44,887 nucleotides of DNA from the NCBI GenBank assembly GCA_023231475.1, contig JALJEE010001843.1, positions 1-44,887 of the forward strand, read 5' to 3'. Under the pieces are notes generated by a model, which ran no database searches, was not told the origin of the DNA, and was given only the letters and a program-made list of their open reading frames with translations. Every line of letters begins with the position of its first letter. Position 1 is the first letter of the stretch. This stretch comes from Seison nebaliae (lineage: Eukaryota; Rotifera; Pararotatoria; Seisonacea; Seisonidae). The position numbers were made by a program, and so were the translations under genes. Shown here piece by piece: positions 31,215 through 40,590 of the stretch.

Positions 31215-31452
31215 GACAGTTCATTGTTGTTTACTTTCATTCTTTCTTTCATTTTTTGGTTGAAGAATTGAAAGTACATCGGCTAGAACTTATTAATCAC
31301 ATAACACTTCGATCGTAAGTACGTCATCAACGAAATAATTAGTTTTACCTCTATACATAATAATTATCGTAGAAAAGTCTCCTCGACAAATTTATTCATG
31401 ACAAAAAAGAAATTCATTTGTTCTTATCTCCCTGCAACATAGATTAATAAAT

Positions 31453-34287
31453 ATGAGACTGACCAGATCTCATTATTGGAGAATAATTTTACAATTTTTA
31501 ATTTCTTCAATTTCAATCGCTTTAGGCAATGAAGTAAGAAGTGATTGTAAAAATGATGGTTGTACCGTGAGATGGAATATGACACATCTCTCATTTGCGC
31601 CGGTTGAATCAGTCAGATATTATTTGGTAGAACTCGTAGCGAAATCTCATAATGAGATGAAACAAACTCAGAAAATTTATCAAAATCAACAACATCTAAT
31701 TTATTCGACTTCATTCAAAAATCTCAATAACAATTTCCAATACATTCTCACCATTACACCATTTATCGATACTCCTTATTCAATATATGACACTGATGCG
31801 CAAATACGTAAAATTCTAAATTTTGAGAAAAAATTCTCGAACGATAGATCGAATTTCTTTATTTCAAATTTTTTGGAAGATTATTCAACGAATAATATAC
31901 GTGTACATGATAACGTTAAATCCAATTCACAACTACCAATACCGTTTGCGTTACAATTTAAAATATCTTATTCTCCTTTATTGTTCAATATTCGATGGCA
32001 AATTGGAAATAATTCAATGAAGCATCAACTTTTTCGTTTAAGATTTCAAAGTGAATCTCTCTTTATGAAAAATTCAGAAGCTCTTCTTCAAGATGATGCA
32101 ATGATGATGGATGCGTTGAAAAGTTCCAATGATAAATTCTCCGAAATTTTCATTTTCAGCAAATGTTGTAGTATTGACTTCTCACCAGCCAAATTTAAAT
32201 TTCTCCCGTTCACTAATTATACATTACAAATCCAAAGAATTAATATTTCTTATAAGGCCAATAATCAATCGTATTACGTTGATAATAAATCATATTATTC
32301 GATGGGAATATACATCCAATTAGACACATTGTTTCCTCCATTAGATTCGCCATCAGGCTTAACTGTCATCTCACCGAATAAACCAACTTCAGTCAAAATA
32401 AAATGGAAAATGCCAATGGAACCGAATGGGAAAATCATCAAATATATCGTCGAATATCGAAAATTAATGGAGGAGAATGATAATTGGCAATTCGTTCTAA
32501 TTAATGGTAATATACCTCGTATTCATCTTCTTCAATTAATGCCTGAAACGAATTATTTATTCCGCGTAAAAGCTGAAAATGTTATTGGCAGTTCACCATA
32601 TTCGAAAACATTACAACATGTCACAGCTCCTCTATTCTATAATTCTGATTCGAATTATATGGATGACGCATTTCGTTCTTTAGAATTTGATGCTAATCTG
32701 CCCGAATTAGATTTTCAAATCGAATCCTATTCGACTGTGAAACCAAAAAAAATAAACAAATTTAAAGTCATTCAAAATGATGATCATACGATAACGAATA
32801 AAATGAAAGTAGATGACGAGTTTAGCGAAGATAAGAAGAAGAAAAATGAAAATTTATTCTCCAAGAAAATGATTTATATCGTTGTTGGATGTATTTGCAC
32901 AACCATATTTTGTACTGGTTCAATGGCAGGAATAATTATCAGAATGAAAATGAATAATACTCTACGACGACAACAAAGTCAAAATGGGAAAGCAGATTCA
33001 TCCAAATCGTTTGGAGAAGTTTTAACCGTAGACGCACCATCTTCTTTGACATCTGCAGGACAATTAGCGAATATTACATATAACATGAATAATCGAAATG
33101 GATCATATACACCACTACTTAGTAGTAGCGTAGATGGGACGAGTAGTCACCAAACTGAGAGAACGTCAACTACCAGTAATAGTAATTGTTCGAAGAAACA
33201 ATTATTAACGATTGCTTCTGATAATTCCAAATGTCAAAGTATTCTTAATCAAGAAAAAGAGAATAATAATTCGTCAATGAATCCAACCACATCATTACAC
33301 CGACAAAGGAATAGAAATCAATTGGTTTCCATTGAGGAACAACGTCAACAATCATCTCCGATTCATAATCCAATGATACATGTGACACCGTTAAGAGAAC
33401 CCAATGCTAATCTTTCAAGATTTTGTGCTATCGATGTAAACGATTCTGATTATGAACCATCGAATAGTTCAATGATGCAACATCAACATCAACAACAAGA
33501 ACAATGTTATAATATAGAAAAACAAAATAGTACAACTTTACTTTCATTTTCATCGAACAACAATATAATGAAACAACAAAACGGAACATTTTGCAACACG
33601 ATGAAGAAATCAAGAATTAACGGCAGTGTTACTAATACGAATGATGACGAATTTTATTGTTATAATAATGCAAATATTAATGATAATCGACATTTCCATC
33701 AATATACTCATGCTCGATCAAACCAAGCGACTTTACGTAGAAATATGAAAGATACTCCACATATACATGTGAAACCGTTATTCAAATCTCCAAATGACAA
33801 TATGATGATTAATGGTACAGAACGAAGCCTACATCAAATTATTAATAAAACTAATATTTTCTCACCTCATCACAGTCGCAATTATTTGGCAGATTATTAT
33901 TCTCAAAATAACAAGCAACCATATGAACCGACATCAGCAGGAATATATCAACCTACTAACAGCAGTTTAAATTCAGATAGTTTATCGACACGTGAGTCCA
34001 TCTATTCCAATGGTAATACTAGTTCCAATGGCGGAAAAGTTCAAATAAGTGGAAGAAGTCAATTGAATGTCAGTTTCAAAAATAATTTGAATTGTTATGA
34101 AACTAAATTAAATGAATCTCCAATTGTCCAACAACGACCTCCATCATCAAACATGTCATCTAATTCTAATAGTTCTATGAATGGACTAAAACAACGATGT
34201 GATTATCGTTACACACATGAACAAAGGGAAATTCCTGAAGAATGTCCCAATTCTATTAATTCAACGCAATTTTCAAATTCTCGTTAA
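31453..34287 (+). CDS. single-pass FN3 membrane protein with long tail
   Basis: 944 aa in one exon. Signal peptide at residues 1-25 (IILQFLISSISIALG). The ectodomain of about 445 residues has one clear fibronectin type III domain (about 297-392: PSGLTV, a conserved Trp in VKIKWKMP, LMPETNYLFRVKAENVIGSS) and two diverged beta-rich regions before it that could be further FN3 domains. The transmembrane helix is at about 473-496 (IYIVVGCICTTIFCTGSMAG). The 448-residue cytoplasmic tail is Asn/Ser/Gln-rich and low-complexity, with a FGEVLTVDA motif near the membrane. The architecture suits a neuronal adhesion or guidance receptor, but no kinase, Ig domain or named family is recognisable. Confidence 0.8.
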   Translation: MRLTRSHYWRIILQFLISSISIALGNEVRSDCKNDGCTVRWNMTHLSFAPVESVRYYLVELVAKSHNEMKQTQKIYQNQQHLIYSTSFKNLNNNFQYILTITPFIDTPYSIYDTDAQIRKILNFEKKFSNDRSNFFISNFLEDYSTNNIRVHDNVKSNSQLPIPFALQFKISYSPLLFNIRWQIGNNSMKHQLFRLRFQSESLFMKNSEALLQDDAMMMDALKSSNDKFSEIFIFSKCCSIDFSPAKFKFLPFTNYTLQIQRINISYKANNQSYYVDNKSYYSMGIYIQLDTLFPPLDSPSGLTVISPNKPTSVKIKWKMPMEPNGKIIKYIVEYRKLMEENDNWQFVLINGNIPRIHLLQLMPETNYLFRVKAENVIGSSPYSKTLQHVTAPLFYNSDSNYMDDAFRSLEFDANLPELDFQIESYSTVKPKKINKFKVIQNDDHTITNKMKVDDEFSEDKKKKNENLFSKKMIYIVVGCICTTIFCTGSMAGIIIRMKMNNTLRRQQSQNGKADSSKSFGEVLTVDAPSSLTSAGQLANITYNMNNRNGSYTPLLSSSVDGTSSHQTERTSTTSNSNCSKKQLLTIASDNSKCQSILNQEKENNNSSMNPTTSLHRQRNRNQLVSIEEQRQQSSPIHNPMIHVTPLREPNANLSRFCAIDVNDSDYEPSNSSMMQHQHQQQEQCYNIEKQNSTTLLSFSSNNNIMKQQNGTFCNTMKKSRINGSVTNTNDDEFYCYNNANINDNRHFHQYTHARSNQATLRRNMKDTPHIHVKPLFKSPNDNMMINGTERSLHQIINKTNIFSPHHSRNYLADYYSQNNKQPYEPTSAGIYQPTNSSLNSDSLSTRESIYSNGNTSSNGGKVQISGRSQLNVSFKNNLNCYETKLNESPIVQQRPPSSNMSSNSNSSMNGLKQRCDYRYTHEQREIPEECPNSINSTQFSNSR

Positions 34288-35484: not shown

Positions 35485-36310
35485 ATGTCAAATGATTGTT
35501 TTGAGCAGAGTAAAGAAAATTCGGATGAAACAAAAAACATTTCTGACAACAGTTCGTCTACTCAAATGGAAGATAATACTAACAATAACCGAGGGAAATT
35601 ATATGTTCCTGGATTAGGTTTAGAGATAATTCTCTTCCATTTCTTCATAACTATTCATTCATTTGTAAAGGGCAAGCCGGAGTTAATCAATTGGGTGGCG
35701 TATTTGTTAATGGGAGACCTCTCCCAGATCATGTTCGACAAAAAATTGTTGAATTATCATTATTAGGTGTCCGACCATGTGACATTTCTAGACATCTATT
35801 AGTTTCTCATGGTTGTGTCTCGAAAATATTAACTAGATTTTATGAAACTGGCACGATTAAACCTGGAAGTTTACAATGTTCTATCGATAAAAGTTAATTT
35901 ATTGTTTTCAACGTTCTCATTATGATGAATATATTTGCAGGTGAATTCAATGGAAAGAAGAAAAGGAAGAGTCTCGCATACAAGCGTAAATTACAAGTTA
36001 CAATTTTATTTGAGTTTTATTAATTCTATTGAAGTGTTAGACTGATAATCGAAATGTCAAGAGAATTTTATACAATTCCTCCATCAAATCCAACATGGAC
36101 AAAAAGGAATTTCTTCAGCCAATCAACGAATCAAATACGACGAAAGAAGTGCAAAATGGTGAATGCGACAAGAATTTAGTTGCCCTACTACTACTGCATT
36201 TAGCTAACGCGCTTAATCAAAAACAAAATGATTCGAACAAAGAAAAGAAGGTATTGACCAAAGAGAACGCTTCCCCAAAATCTTTCCATATCGAACATTT
36301 ACTGAAATAA
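35485..36310 (+). CDS. Poxn: Pox-neuro-like protein with PAI-only paired domain
   Basis: Four exons, 35485-35617, 35671-35892, 35941-35996, 36041-36310, phases closing to 226 aa. Residues 45-111 are the PAI (N-terminal) half of a paired domain: [19 protein letters not shown], then [19 protein letters not shown] and [11 protein letters not shown]; the ILTRFYETG ending points to Pox neuro rather than Pax2/5/8, Pax6 or Pax3/7. The RED half that normally follows (IGGSK...) is missing: after KPGS comes a short basic linker ([14 protein letters not shown], a likely nuclear localisation signal), then [10 protein letters not shown], which weakly resembles the end of RED's last helix. The protein ends SFHIEHLLK, fitting the eh1 Groucho-binding pattern FxIxxLL. 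Pox neuro is a DNA-binding regulator of sensory-organ fate in flies. Introns are 44-53 bp, leaving no room for a hidden RED exon between 35671 and 36310. Confidence 0.78.
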
Positions 36311-36474
36311 TATATTTTATGATTGTAACTCTATTAAGAAAATCGAGTAAAATATTGTGAAATTTCCTAAATCAACTTATTTTCCATTTTGCCTAATTTA
36401 CTTTTCATTTCGTTAATTAAAAATTTGTTCATTGTCGGTGATACTAACATTTCTTCATTTGTTTCTTGTGTATC

Positions 36475-37098
36475 ATGCCAATCCCAACAATTGACAATGC
36501 CGCCATTCCTTACCGATTACAACCGCCAATTGAGGGAAAATATTTTAATAAGAGATTTGTAAATCATCCAAATGAGAGACATGAGTTTCCTTGTCCTGAT
36601 CAGTACAAGTCTCAACCGGACAAGAGATTGAAAGAGATGTTGAAAAGACAAAAATTACCAGGAAAAGATACAATAACAAAACCAATCTTACCGAAATGTG
36701 AAGCAGAAGAGCGTAAGAAATATTGTTCGAATAACGGTTATGGCCAAAGAACAGCAAAAGAAACATTTTTCAACAAAGATCCTCCTGTTAAAAAGATTTA
36801 TCGAATATTCCTCAAATATGGGTCGAGTATGGTGGAGGTGTATGTTGGCCGTGACGAATCGCTAACAGGACCATGTTTAAAAGATTTAAGAGAGAAAGTT
36901 GATAAAACGTTTGGAATACCATTTGCCGATCAAAGACTTTATTATTTGGGACAGATTCTACAGAACTATGACGATGATCGATGTTTGAAAGATTTATATA
37001 TTTGGGATGGCGCCACCATTAACATAGGAGGTTGTCCAAAAGCAGGTAATTCGTGTGTCAGCGAATGTGCCAATAAAACATATTCCTGCACGATCTAA
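36475..37098 (+). CDS. BAG1-like ubiquitin-like domain protein A
   Basis: 207 aa, single exon; the ATG at 36475 is the first in frame. Residues 1-100 are basic and Pro-rich with no domain. Residues about 101-183 form a ubiquitin-like fold: KKIYRIFLKYGSS (strands 1-2), GPCLKDLREKVDKTFGIPF (helix), DQRLYYLGQILQNYDD, then WDGATINIGG. The helix and DQR-YY-GQ pattern resembles the Ubl of BAG1, but no BAG domain follows. After IGG comes a short Cys-rich tail (CPKAGNSCVSEC...). It forms a tandem pair with the next gene. A role in proteasome or chaperone contact is inferred only from the fold. Confidence 0.7.
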   Translation: MPIPTIDNAAIPYRLQPPIEGKYFNKRFVNHPNERHEFPCPDQYKSQPDKRLKEMLKRQKLPGKDTITKPILPKCEAEERKKYCSNNGYGQRTAKETFFNKDPPVKKIYRIFLKYGSSMVEVYVGRDESLTGPCLKDLREKVDKTFGIPFADQRLYYLGQILQNYDDDRCLKDLYIWDGATINIGGCPKAGNSCVSECANKTYSCTI

Positions 37099-37267
37099 TG
37101 AACATCAATTATAATGTTTTCAATTGAATATTGCTTGAGTATAAAACTCCAAACTATTTCTTTTTTTTCAGTAGGAATTCTCTTTTTTCTTTTCTTTTAT
37201 TCTGTTTTTAGTTCACTTTCCAAGTTTTCTTTTTCAATTGATATTCCGATTTTGTTTGTTAGTTAGA

Positions 37268-37702
37268 ATGAATAACCGCAAATTTTCAGTACCTGAATCT
37301 TGTCCCGATGGTTATGGTATCAAAAAGAAACAGGGACAAGGTTATCAAGGATTTGTTTTTGGTGGACATGATTCGAATGGTGCAAGGAAACTTGAAAGAA
37401 CGCCACCAAAAAGTATTCGGATCGAATTACAACATGGATCAGACAGAATAGCTTTAACTGTGGAGAATAAAGACTCACCGGAAGGACCAACAATAAAAGA
37501 TTTAAAAGATTTAGTAAAGAAACACACATATGTGCCTTTCTGCGATCAAAGAATCTATTACAAAGGACAATCGTTACAGAAAGAACCAGATAATGAATAT
37601 TTACATAAATATTATGTAATGCCAAATGCTCAAATTGCTATTGGTGGAGCGCAACAAGGTACATCATGCTTCACTGATTGTAAGGATCCAGCAGATCCTT
37701 GA
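37268..37702 (+). CDS. BAG1-like ubiquitin-like domain protein B
   Basis: 144 aa, single exon, a paralogue of the preceding gene 170 bp upstream. It has a shorter N-terminus. The ubiquitin-like domain (about residues 44-130) has KSIRIELQHGSD, GPTIKDLKDLVKKHTYVPF and CDQRIYYKGQSLQ, then IAIGG and a Cys tail (TSCFTDCKDPADP). Conserved between the two are GP-x-x-KDL, the PF-x-DQR-x-YY-x-GQ-x-LQ segment, IGG and SC-x3-C. Divergence outside these positions means the duplication is not recent. The start chosen is the ATG at 37268; the frame continues upstream without another ATG. Confidence 0.7.
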   Translation: MNNRKFSVPESCPDGYGIKKKQGQGYQGFVFGGHDSNGARKLERTPPKSIRIELQHGSDRIALTVENKDSPEGPTIKDLKDLVKKHTYVPFCDQRIYYKGQSLQKEPDNEYLHKYYVMPNAQIAIGGAQQGTSCFTDCKDPADP

Positions 37703-37799: not shown

Positions 37800-40277
37800 T
37801 CAAATATCAGTAAACATAATATTGTTTATCACGTCAGTTTCGAATACGAAATTTTCAATCACTTCTTTATGATATTCAGCCAGACATGGTTGACCAATAC
37901 GTAAACATTGAATTCGAATTTTTGAGTTGACTAATTCTTGAACAAGTCGATGGACAGCAAGGTCGTTCGCTGCTATCAACTGTAAACTGAACAATGTAAT
38001 ATTGGGAGCCATTCTTTTCGGAAGTACATTATCTGAATTTCTAGAAGTTTCCAATTTTCTTGTATTTTCATTGATAGATTTGGTAAGAATATAAAGAAAT
38101 TGATTTCCTAATCGAACATTCCCATCTAAGCAGAATATTTTTATTTGTGAAATTTTGTCAACTAAATTATCATTGAACGTCTTCATTAATGTCAGTGGCA
38201 TAATTATATTGCAATTAGTGAGAATTAAATTATTCAATGAAGATTGGACTTCTTTTAGAAATAAATGATTAATGGTTTCCATCGAAGCAATATTTAGATC
38301 GATTCCACTTATTTTTAACGTTTCAACGGTAAACGGATTTTGTAATAATAACAACAGAGCTGCCATATCCAGATTTCCTGAATTAAGTTGACCAGCGATA
38401 ATCGTTTTCATATTGGAGAAAATGAAAAAAAGAAATTTCAATGTATTCATGTCGATTGGCTTTAATGTCAATTTCTCCAGAATTATCTCTTCCATTCCTT
38501 GGAACCTTTTGATTATCCAAGAAATTTGAGAAACGGCAATCGATGACATTTCCGTTTTTACTTCAATACTTTGCTGTCTCGAATCCTGGTGTGATATACG
38601 TATTGGTTTCGATTTGTCTTTTCCTGCTCCAAAAATTTCAAATCGATAATTTTGTATCCTATTTATTCGTTGTTCTAAAGATTCGGTTGGTAAATCAAAA
38701 ATCTTGAAAATTTCTAAAGATGTAAAAAGACCAGTAGCTCTCTCTTCCGTAACTACACCAATTAATCCGCTTTTGTGAGGATCTTGAAAGATGTGTTGAT
38801 TTAAAAAAATCATATTTGGAATGGACGTTACAAAAGAAATATCTTTCAATTTGATACTTCGTAAATCTAAGGGATTATTCTTGGCTTGATTTGTGGTGAG
38901 AAGTAATGTTGAAAGAAGACTAGTCAAATCGGGTAATAATATAACGGTGGAACATAAAGAGAAATACTCTAATTTTTTATTCCAAAGTAAATTGAACATG
39001 ATATCAATGAGATCGATTGTTATTGGATTCGAAGAATCTAAATTTTCCAACTTGAATTTTTCAACGATATCGCAGAATGAAACGATGTGATGGATGTAAT
39101 GTTTAATGATTCGTAAGAAGAAGAATGTTCCACCGCTGATCTTGAAAGTTACTATACGGCGAATATTCTTATGATAAATATGTTCATAAAATTTTTCGAG
39201 GATGTGACTAATGCAAAAATTCTCCATGTTAATGAGATAAATTGAATTTATAGAATGGACGTTAAAAATCATTTCTAAAATATCCACATTCATTTCATAA
39301 TCCGTTTCTATAGATTCGAATGACAAATCACGTATCTTCTTTAGTTTGGCGTTGTTAATTGTAGCATCGGGTTTAACGAACTGTACTCCACATAATTTAA
39401 TTTCATTAATCGGATATGATGTGATTGTTGTATTTTCGTACAATTCTAATAATAGAGCGATATTATCATTGCGCAAATGGATAGAGTTGACGTATTTGAA
39501 GAATGTCCAGTCCCAACTGACATCTTCCCATGTATTCACTTTCTCCGAATAAAGAAATTCATATCCATTTTTTTTCCTCATGTCATATCTATATGAATCG
39601 ACCACAGACATATCCGTGACGGAAATTGAAATAGTTTTATTCAAATTTAAATGATATGCATTCAATTGTTCTGCAACTGAATTTTTCACACTTCTTTTTC
39701 GACTCTCTTCAAGATCTTTCAGTGTGATAACTCGATAATATAATTTTCTACATTTCAACACAGTTTCATTAAACAAATGATTGAAATATTTTCGGCGATA
39801 ATCTTCCGTCGTTTCTTTCAATATCAGAGAAGAAGGAGACCATGTTAATAATTCGCAATGAGATTTCCAAATGCTATCAAAATCGACAAATTTCTCATAT
39901 TTCATATTAATTGCACAATTCAATAAATCAATTGATTGTTCCATTAGAGTGGTATCGTTTACTAGCGTAGGTGGTGCAGTATCAGAAGAACGTAGTACGA
40001 ATTCTTCGAAAGTGTCCAAAAATGACTTGAATTTAACTGGTTGCATCAATAAAATTGAATAAAGACGTCGGCAGTTTACGACTATTTGGGAAGTGGTTAA
40101 CGTATGAAGATTTGGACCAACGTACAACATATTCTCTAAATGCAACAAATTGTTGACGTTAGAATGCATCGCAATCTTCAACAAACTGCCTGACGACAGA
40201 CCTAGAAGAAGCATTTCTTCAAATTCCGAAATATTATTCGCCACATATTCAGAACAAATTTCACAAAGCGATTCCAT
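37800..40277 (-). CDS. elongin BC-box leucine-rich protein (CRL substrate-receptor-like)
   Basis: 825 aa with no introns; the start is the ATG at 40277. Residues 3-12 (SLCEICSEYV) match the BC-box consensus (S/T/P)LxxxCxxxPhi exactly, followed by a predicted helical segment (EEMLLLGLSSGSLLKIAMH) where cullin-box sequences lie in such proteins. The rest is leucine/isoleucine-rich with irregular repeats of 24-30 residues (for example LEIFKIFDL, METINHLFL, LNNLILTNCNI), compatible with degenerate LRRs. That layout occurs in LRRC41/MUF1, ZYG11/ZER1 and PRAME, receptors of Cul2/Cul5-elongin BC ubiquitin ligases; I cannot choose between them. It converges on the ubiquitin-like pair with 97 bp between stop codons. 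Confidence 0.6.
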   Translation of the reverse strand: MESLCEICSEYVANNISEFEEMLLLGLSSGSLLKIAMHSNVNNLLHLENMLYVGPNLHTLTTSQIVVNCRRLYSILLMQPVKFKSFLDTFEEFVLRSSDTAPPTLVNDTTLMEQSIDLLNCAINMKYEKFVDFDSIWKSHCELLTWSPSSLILKETTEDYRRKYFNHLFNETVLKCRKLYYRVITLKDLEESRKRSVKNSVAEQLNAYHLNLNKTISISVTDMSVVDSYRYDMRKKNGYEFLYSEKVNTWEDVSWDWTFFKYVNSIHLRNDNIALLLELYENTTITSYPINEIKLCGVQFVKPDATINNAKLKKIRDLSFESIETDYEMNVDILEMIFNVHSINSIYLINMENFCISHILEKFYEHIYHKNIRRIVTFKISGGTFFFLRIIKHYIHHIVSFCDIVEKFKLENLDSSNPITIDLIDIMFNLLWNKKLEYFSLCSTVILLPDLTSLLSTLLLTTNQAKNNPLDLRSIKLKDISFVTSIPNMIFLNQHIFQDPHKSGLIGVVTEERATGLFTSLEIFKIFDLPTESLEQRINRIQNYRFEIFGAGKDKSKPIRISHQDSRQQSIEVKTEMSSIAVSQISWIIKRFQGMEEIILEKLTLKPIDMNTLKFLFFIFSNMKTIIAGQLNSGNLDMAALLLLLQNPFTVETLKISGIDLNIASMETINHLFLKEVQSSLNNLILTNCNIIMPLTLMKTFNDNLVDKISQIKIFCLDGNVRLGNQFLYILTKSINENTRKLETSRNSDNVLPKRMAPNITLFSLQLIAANDLAVHRLVQELVNSKIRIQCLRIGQPCLAEYHKEVIENFVFETDVINNIMFTDI

Positions 40278-40590
40278 GATAAACAGCAATTTTTTAGAAA
40301 TAGTATATGATAGTTTTTAATTTAACTCAAGTTACCACATACATGTACACTGCACAACATACAGTTAGGACAGTACCCAAATTTGCGCTAATCGTTAAAA
40401 AGCTTTTAATTGTTATATCAACAGTTTTTTTATTCTTATTGTCTCTTATCATATTTAATATACATATTAAACTTTATTTTCTTACTATATATCATATATA
40501 CTGCTTTTCAAAATTTTAAACAGTATCAAAACGTATTAGAACTATAAAGAGTCTCAAATTTTGCTGCAAATTACCATTATTTGAGATATA
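40278..40590. other. intergenic before the Tc1-like element
   Basis: AT-rich sequence with no gene. It is the presumed promoter of the minus-strand BC-box gene. The TA at 40589-40590 is the target-site duplication of the next element. Confidence 0.4.

Follow-up and report, generated by a model that had tools for sequence, protein, structure and literature searches.

Can a Pox neuro (Poxn) gene persist with only one half of its paired domain, and what would the remaining protein do? The question is raised by a locus in Seison nebaliae, a seisonid rotifer; seisonids are described as dwellers on the crustacean Nebalia (PMC8351084). The locus lies on contig C835 of a 36.0-Mb assembly of 846 contigs, and the window referred to below is this contig in its entire length of 44,887 bp. 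A first-pass annotation of this window had proposed a Poxn-like protein carrying the PAI half of the paired domain, no RED half and a C-terminal eh1 motif.

Gene model and Pox neuro identity

Spliced together, the four exons (Table 1) remain in frame over 226 codons and a stop, and the product is identical over its full length (100%) to SNEBB_004075, deposited at NCBI as a hypothetical protein of S. nebaliae. The open frame and the deposited product bear out the four-exon structure of the first-pass annotation and show its guess of a mite origin to be wrong. The conserved PAI, the basic linker and the terminal FHIEHLLK that it had described were all recovered by the splice model, the Pfam scan and the motif scan. 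The codon of residue 45 is divided by intron 1. Lys-rich stretches were also seen by eye in the Brachionus proteins P0042 and P0131.

Table 1. Parts of the Seison Poxn gene, in positions of the window.
Feature	Position	Strand	Description
Exon 1	35485-35617	+	Ser/Asn-rich N-terminus, GKLYVPGLG at its end; splice model
Intron 1	35618-35670	+	53 bases, GT-AG, phase 1; splice model
Exon 2	35671-35892	+	PAI half, stops soon after; PF00292 match 35670-35888
PAI subdomain	35673-35870	+	Residues 46-111; beta hairpin and helix-turn-helix
Intron 2	35893-35940	+	48 bases, phase 1; near the expected RED start
Exon 3	35941-35996	+	First part of the linker occupying the place of RED; splice model
Basic linker	35949-35996	+	Residues 122-137; possible nuclear localisation signal
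Intron 3	35997-36040	+	44 bases, phase 0; splice model
Exon 4	36041-36310	+	Predicted disordered tail with one helix and the octapeptide; ends in TAA (36308-36310)
Predicted helix	36170-36217	+	Residues 181-196; AlphaFold2, block pLDDT 72-78
C-terminal octapeptide/eh1 FHIEHLLK	36284-36307	+	Residues 219-226

Other open frames are found on both sides of the gene. On the + strand, a 961-aa frame (31402-34287) harbors a fibronectin type III domain (51.8 bits), a transmembrane-looking hydrophobic stretch and a long Asn/Ser-rich tail. Two neighboring small frames on the same strand (36448-37098 and 37175-37702) encode a ubiquitin-like domain, with Pfam scores of 25.8 bits for one, just above the cut-off, and 21.1 bits for the other, below it; they are perhaps a tandem duplicate. 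An 838-aa frame on the - strand (37800-40316) has a leucine-rich appearance and no Pfam match at E 0.001.

The Pfam PAX model matched residues 45-119 of the Seison protein with its positions 1-75 of 125 (120 bits), and its positions 76-125 found no match there. Over 66 columns, the PAI half is 91% identical to that of Rotaria socialis and 89% identical to that of Tribolium Poxn (P0085), which was deposited as Pax-1 yet carries the Poxn signature, RED and the octapeptide. The Pfam scan recognized neither a homeobox family nor an activation domain in the Seison protein, and a sub-threshold HTH_23 match fell inside PAI. The GGSKPK that usually follows PAI is replaced in Seison, and the contact of the linker with DNA may therefore be partly weaker.

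Four distinct chains of known structure, those of Pax5, Pax8, Prd and Pax6, matched the protein by sequence at E 0.001. The AlphaFold2 model is of low confidence as a whole (mean pLDDT 61.4, pTM 0.37). Its folded parts are PAI, with a hairpin and helices 64-75, 80-87 and 91-104 (blocks 51-110, pLDDT 75-93), and one helix, and it contains no RED-like fold; residues 123-164, 166-178 and 215-226, the last including the octapeptide, are unfolded in the model with pLDDT below 50. Foldseek returned three matches below E 0.001, all of them paired domains (1pdn, 1k78 and 6pax). As whole structures they superpose poorly (rmsd 10.5-12.1; TM-score relative to the query 0.22), which is expected because the common part is one half only. 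Hydrophobic stretches in bdelloids and Brachionus (LFSVLHHYNQFLLQQ, KLWHDYVMSAMNNVLQ) are placed similarly to the Seison helix 181-196, a candidate likeness by position.

In a maximum-likelihood tree of PAI (66 columns, 45 rows), the Seison protein grouped with 30 Poxn sequences (support 98/98), apart from the seven Pax genes that Seison has besides it and from named Pax1/9, Pax5/8, Pax6 and Prd; branches within Poxn received mostly no resolution because the columns are few. Among the other Seison genes, C276 and C729 are two separate genes grouping with Pax6 (96/94), C147 groups with Pax1/9 (90/88) and C365 with Prd (97/85). Two genes about 5 kb apart (C381:70241-70653 and C381:75265-75680) group together (93/87); the pair resembles a tandem duplication and is Pax2/5/8-like by eye, while not grouped with Pax5/8 in the tree. 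The eighth Pax gene (C431:209205-209556; FNQLGGEFINGRPLPYDLRQ) is very divergent and stands unplaced on a long branch. Searches of the assembly with Pfam PAX and spider Poxn queries found no second Poxn, full-length or other, and the full-length copy that the first-pass annotation had thought worth looking for is not among the eight Seison Pax genes. PoxNeuro has been characterized by a tribasic signal in helix 1 and a KPKQVAT-type insertion (exon 2/3 junction) (PMC5333810). The Seison protein has no such insertion and no tribasic signal, reading VRQK in helix 1.

RED in Seison, other rotifers and other animals

The nematode protein NPAX-2 was first called PAI-only and its divergent RED was recognized later (PMC4448998). 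This precedent urges caution, and profile and shuffle tests were made for that reason. A RED profile, assembled from 73 relatives that had been retrieved, scored -4.8 bits on the Seison protein, its best match being five residues long (143-147). In six frames of the window the best score was 7.1 bits; 20 shuffled windows gave 7.2 on average and 11.9 at most. No RED coding was detected in intron 2. At the seven other Seison Pax loci, which served as a positive control, the same profile reached 41-97 bits. Across the whole assembly, Pfam PAX gave 14 exon matches above the cut-off, representing eight genes with PAI and seven with RED (in C276 a single match spans both), and each of the seven RED stretches adjoins the PAI of a gene other than Poxn. 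Spider Poxn as query led to the same places. The absence of RED claimed at the outset thus holds by Pfam PAX, by the RED profile and by the assembly search. A complete paired domain (PAI and RED) is among the criteria for Pox neuro; because the paired domain of the Seison protein is incomplete, we regard it as a RED-less member of Pox neuro by descent rather than a canonical one.

A weak RED echo had been suspected at residues 142-151 and is attributable to chance. Residues 112-226 scored 22-25 against six RED sequences, and shuffles matched or beat the local score in 104, 156, 180, 191, 223 and 317 of 500 cases. Nothing comparable was seen by eye at that place in other rotifers, and the candidate remnant was rejected.

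We then asked how RED fares in related proteins. The protein searches covered lengths of 0.55-1.75x the query (226 or 441 aa) and the best 120 matches each, and 200 proteins were retrieved. We counted the 99 with a Poxn signature, a start Met and at least 199 residues, some of which are still incomplete (P0154, P0191); the 101 dropped had no Poxn signature, fewer than 199 aa or no start Met. All are gene models rather than transcripts. RED profile scores were classed as below 20, 20-60 and at least 60 bits, and environmental proteins were called rotifer-like from YVPG or a PAI pattern. Among the proteins retrieved, all named rotifer Poxn with 199 aa or more, from bdelloids, monogononts and the seisonid, scored below 20 bits (11/11), and so did all rotifer-like environmental Poxn (11/11). 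The 77 other Poxn-signature proteins retrieved divided into 62 with at least 60 bits, 2 with 20-60 and 13 below 20. A gap in the assembly or a single missed exon would not produce such a distribution. None of the 19 named rotifer entries retrieved, partial ones included, reached 20 bits (top score -0.5). PAI without RED was found in Poxn of Rotaria, Adineta, Didymodactylos, Brachionus plicatilis and B. calyciflorus, and the longer and shorter forms of Rotaria and Adineta have RED in neither. The Seison gene is therefore not the single oddity it had been taken for: none of the 19 named rotifer entries retrieved has RED, and some other animals lack it too. No named member of Acanthocephala appeared among the matches listed in the protein searches.

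The motif YVPG[VIL]G precedes PAI in 41 of the 200 retrieved proteins, which are 15 of the 19 named rotifer entries and, for the rest, environmental proteins. Only PAI, the N-terminal YVPG and the octapeptide could be traced across rotifer classes. We infer from these sequences that the loss of RED dates back to the common stem of the rotifers sampled; a single loss is argued from the shared absence of RED and from YVPG, because the PAI tree gives no rotifer clade. A single rotifer clade on PAI was rejected: two changes are required on the tree to account for the 15 rotifer rows, and 5% of bootstrap trees (66 columns) unite them.

The loss may have a simple structural route. The exon 2/3 junction of Drosophila Poxn is described as lying between PAI and RED (PMC5333810). 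The Seison PAI exon ends at approximately the same place, 8 residues beyond the PAI core, and in the rotifer models P0012, P0175 and P0178 PAI runs directly, by eye, into an apparent retained intron. Loss of the RED coding at a standing intron would therefore be the simplest route, and RED was probably lost at the exon boundary between the two halves. The intron phase differs, being 1 in Seison versus apparently 0 in P0012, P0175 and P0178.

Outside the rotifers, RED was lost or eroded in 15 of the 77 other Poxn-signature proteins retrieved, which is not a natural frequency because of the length filter and the best-120 lists, and the 77 include environmental proteins. Six of the 13 low scorers are aphidomorphs and four are tick entries, two of which are isoforms from a single Ornithodoros gene; the other three come from the predatory mite Galendromus, the bug Rhodnius and the nemertean Lineus. 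RED of the scale insects Kerria and Planococcus is intermediate, with 34 and 48 bits. The arthropod Poxn with RED absent or eroded are P0024, P0025, P0031, P0038, P0043, P0047, P0050, P0059, P0064, P0073, P0079, P0092, P0150 and P0181. PAI of the RED-low or eroded non-rotifer Poxn is 91-98% identical to that of Tribolium P0085. Isoforms or annotation errors may account for some of the non-rotifer models without RED, among them nemertean P0070 and sea spider P0080. RED is intact in Poxn of the whitefly Bemisia, the mirid Apolygus and the mite Leptotrombidium, and because these relatives keep it, separate losses are suggested. RED loss apparently evolved several times. PAI and octapeptide were observed to persist in aphid, adelgid, phylloxeran, tick, Galendromus, Rhodnius and scale-insect Poxn despite RED being absent or eroded.

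A broader proposition, to which we give an even chance, is that RED of Poxn is an expendable module, dropped on four or more separate occasions (in rotifers, in aphidomorph insects, in a kissing bug, and in parasitiform mites with ticks) from a protein whose PAI and octapeptide are locked. The remainder would be a minimal stand-alone repressor reading one PAI half-site, and in rotifers it would have replaced the ancestral factor group-wide.

The terminal octapeptide and a proposed mode of action

The terminal FHIEHLLK fits the octapeptide pattern [FYH][SNHT]Ixx[IL]L, and its FHIEHLL fits the eh1 pattern FxIxx[IL]L. Shuffling the 115-residue tail 20,000 times produced the octapeptide pattern in 28 cases, one of them at the very end, and plain eh1 in 45 cases, both patterns having been picked after the motif had already been seen. 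The octapeptide is equated with the Groucho-binding EH1 motif in a review (PMC4901127). Of the 19 named rotifer entries, 17 carry it, and the exceptions are P0042 of B. plicatilis and P0125, a fragment of 87 aa. When V is also accepted in place of I, it occurs in 55/62 RED-bearing Poxn-signature proteins, in 12/13 low-RED non-rotifer proteins and in 8/11 rotifer-like environmental proteins. A separate cut (any non-rotifer Pax with RED of at least 60 bits and at least 250 aa) gave the octapeptide in 54/62. The Seison version is divergent, with FHIEHLL versus HSIENIL or HSIDNIL in bdelloids. FHIEHLLK is thus an ordinary Poxn octapeptide, because the pattern is widespread in RED-bearing and RED-less Poxn alike.

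These observations support the initial reading of a PAI-only Poxn protein with a C-terminal eh1-type motif. They also favor internal loss of RED over simple truncation, as had been suggested, because the octapeptide of RED-bearing Poxn persists behind the gap; the support comes from this motif and not from the supposed echo. The pattern is present both in rotifers and in the annelids Capitella and Dimorphilus, which extends the octapeptide to spiralian Poxn. Lophotrochozoan Pax genes had been surveyed in a study whose main text mentions neither Brachionus nor Adineta, and it reported no clearly detected octapeptide in Poxn (PMC5333810).

A Groucho gene is present in Seison (C588:3322-4543, minus strand). 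Its four exon matches are 58-70% identical to a 318-aa TLE1 WD40 query and cover 3-227 and 236-318 of it. The remaining WD40 matches in the assembly are 20-34% identical to the query. N-terminal Q-domain-like pieces were seen by eye upstream of the WD40 part; a Pfam TLE_N search of the assembly returned nothing, and no control gave a signal either. Absence of Groucho was rejected because the WD40 query had located the gene.

Taken together, the only Poxn gene found in the Seison assembly encodes PAI and the octapeptide/eh1 without RED, and we consider it fairly likely to be a small Groucho-dependent repressor that acts via the PAI half-site alone. Such a compact repressor is plausible with a Groucho partner in the genome, DNA binding and repression both being predicted from the sequence. 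The helix-turn-helix of PAI and its N-terminal hairpin would dock on the half-site, the basic linker may contribute non-specific DNA contact and nuclear import, and the tail octapeptide would bind the WD40 domain of Groucho. Without RED, the recognized sites would be shorter and specificity lower, so that target choice might lean more on partners or chromatin.

Other modes of action were weighed against this one. The protein might instead act as a competitor that occupies the PAI half-sites of full-length Pax proteins and blocks them, with a minor role for the octapeptide. Seven RED-bearing Pax genes in the assembly would provide targets for such interference, and Pax PAI domains are alike and might recognize overlapping sites. 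Poxn PAI, however, forms a separate clade, and a pure competitor needs neither the octapeptide, kept in most named rotifer entries, nor the Groucho gene that is present; we regard this as unlikely. We find it a little harder still to credit an activator or bifunctional factor in which activation comes from the C-terminal helix and the Ser/Asn-rich tail, the octapeptide doing no more than tune it. The predicted helix 181-196 and the long tails of monogonont-like Poxn (P0131, P0175-P0180) leave room for it, but Pfam recognized no activation domain, and the octapeptide is the sole motif followed across rotifer classes besides PAI and YVPG.

It is very improbable that RED comes from elsewhere, be it a distant exon missed by the annotation, a second gene or trans-splicing. 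The case of NPAX-2 shows that such errors happen (PMC4448998), but all seven RED stretches found in the assembly adjoin another PAI, the best six-frame score in the window is at the level of shuffled windows, bdelloid and monogonont gene models are equally devoid of RED, and no fold is predicted in its place. Gene loss has been reported in seisonids (PMC8351084), but a decaying gene or assembly artifact, a reading already disfavored, has next to no probability given an open four-exon frame, a PAI so close to that of Rotaria socialis and the same architecture throughout rotifer classes.

Comparison with known Pax proteins

The Groucho-dependent, PAI-only protein that we favor shares with the Pox neuro family its PAI clade, the Poxn signature, the lack of a homeodomain and the C-terminal octapeptide, and differs in the absent RED, the VRQK of helix 1 and the missing KPKQVAT insertion. 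Its architecture as such is not new, because NPAX-1 and NPAX-4 of nematodes have been described as having PAI alone together with an EH1 motif (PMC4901127). The likeness is one of kind, by description; those are nematode genes, whereas in rotifers the architecture extends over three classes and is traced to Poxn. As far as the literature was searched, three points are apparently new: that rotifers (seisonids, bdelloids and monogononts) have this architecture, that it arose from Poxn and that it recurs in arthropod lineages. Among the matches listed from the open-license literature, titles and abstract openings reported no rotifer Poxn or RED-less Poxn, although either may already be in print, and the main text of genome papers on seisonids and relatives holds no Pax- or Pox- words.

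Close natural parallels are Poxn of aphids, adelgids and phylloxerans (P0031, P0047, P0050, P0059, P0073 and P0079), deposited as pox-neuro, Pax, gooseberry or domain names. As in Seison, their RED score is at noise (-2.9 to 1.3 bits); their PAI is 97% identical to that of Tribolium Poxn and their octapeptide reads YTIEEIL. These insect proteins differ in keeping GG after PAI and in having no YVPG motif.

The contribution of RED to Pax function is poorly known. A study of Drosophila Prd called the physiological functions of RED elusive and then found one narrow role (PMC4345280). In that study, Prd without RED (prd-Prd-deltaPBC) supported segmentation, viability and male fertility, but not all accessory-gland functions (PMC4345280). 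Like Seison Poxn, it is a Pax protein with PAI and without RED, and it keeps most functions; it differs in being engineered and in having a homeodomain as second DNA-binding domain, of which Seison Poxn has none. Since RED-less Prd works, albeit with a homeodomain in addition, a Pax protein need not have more of the paired domain than PAI in order to function. Poxn offers a natural series in which PAI is almost unchanged and RED is intact, eroding (ticks, scale insects) or absent (rotifers, aphids), in effect a ready-made experiment. Finally, the Eyegone family also has one half of the paired domain reduced (PMC4901127), but there the reduced half is PAI, opposite to the situation in Seison Poxn.
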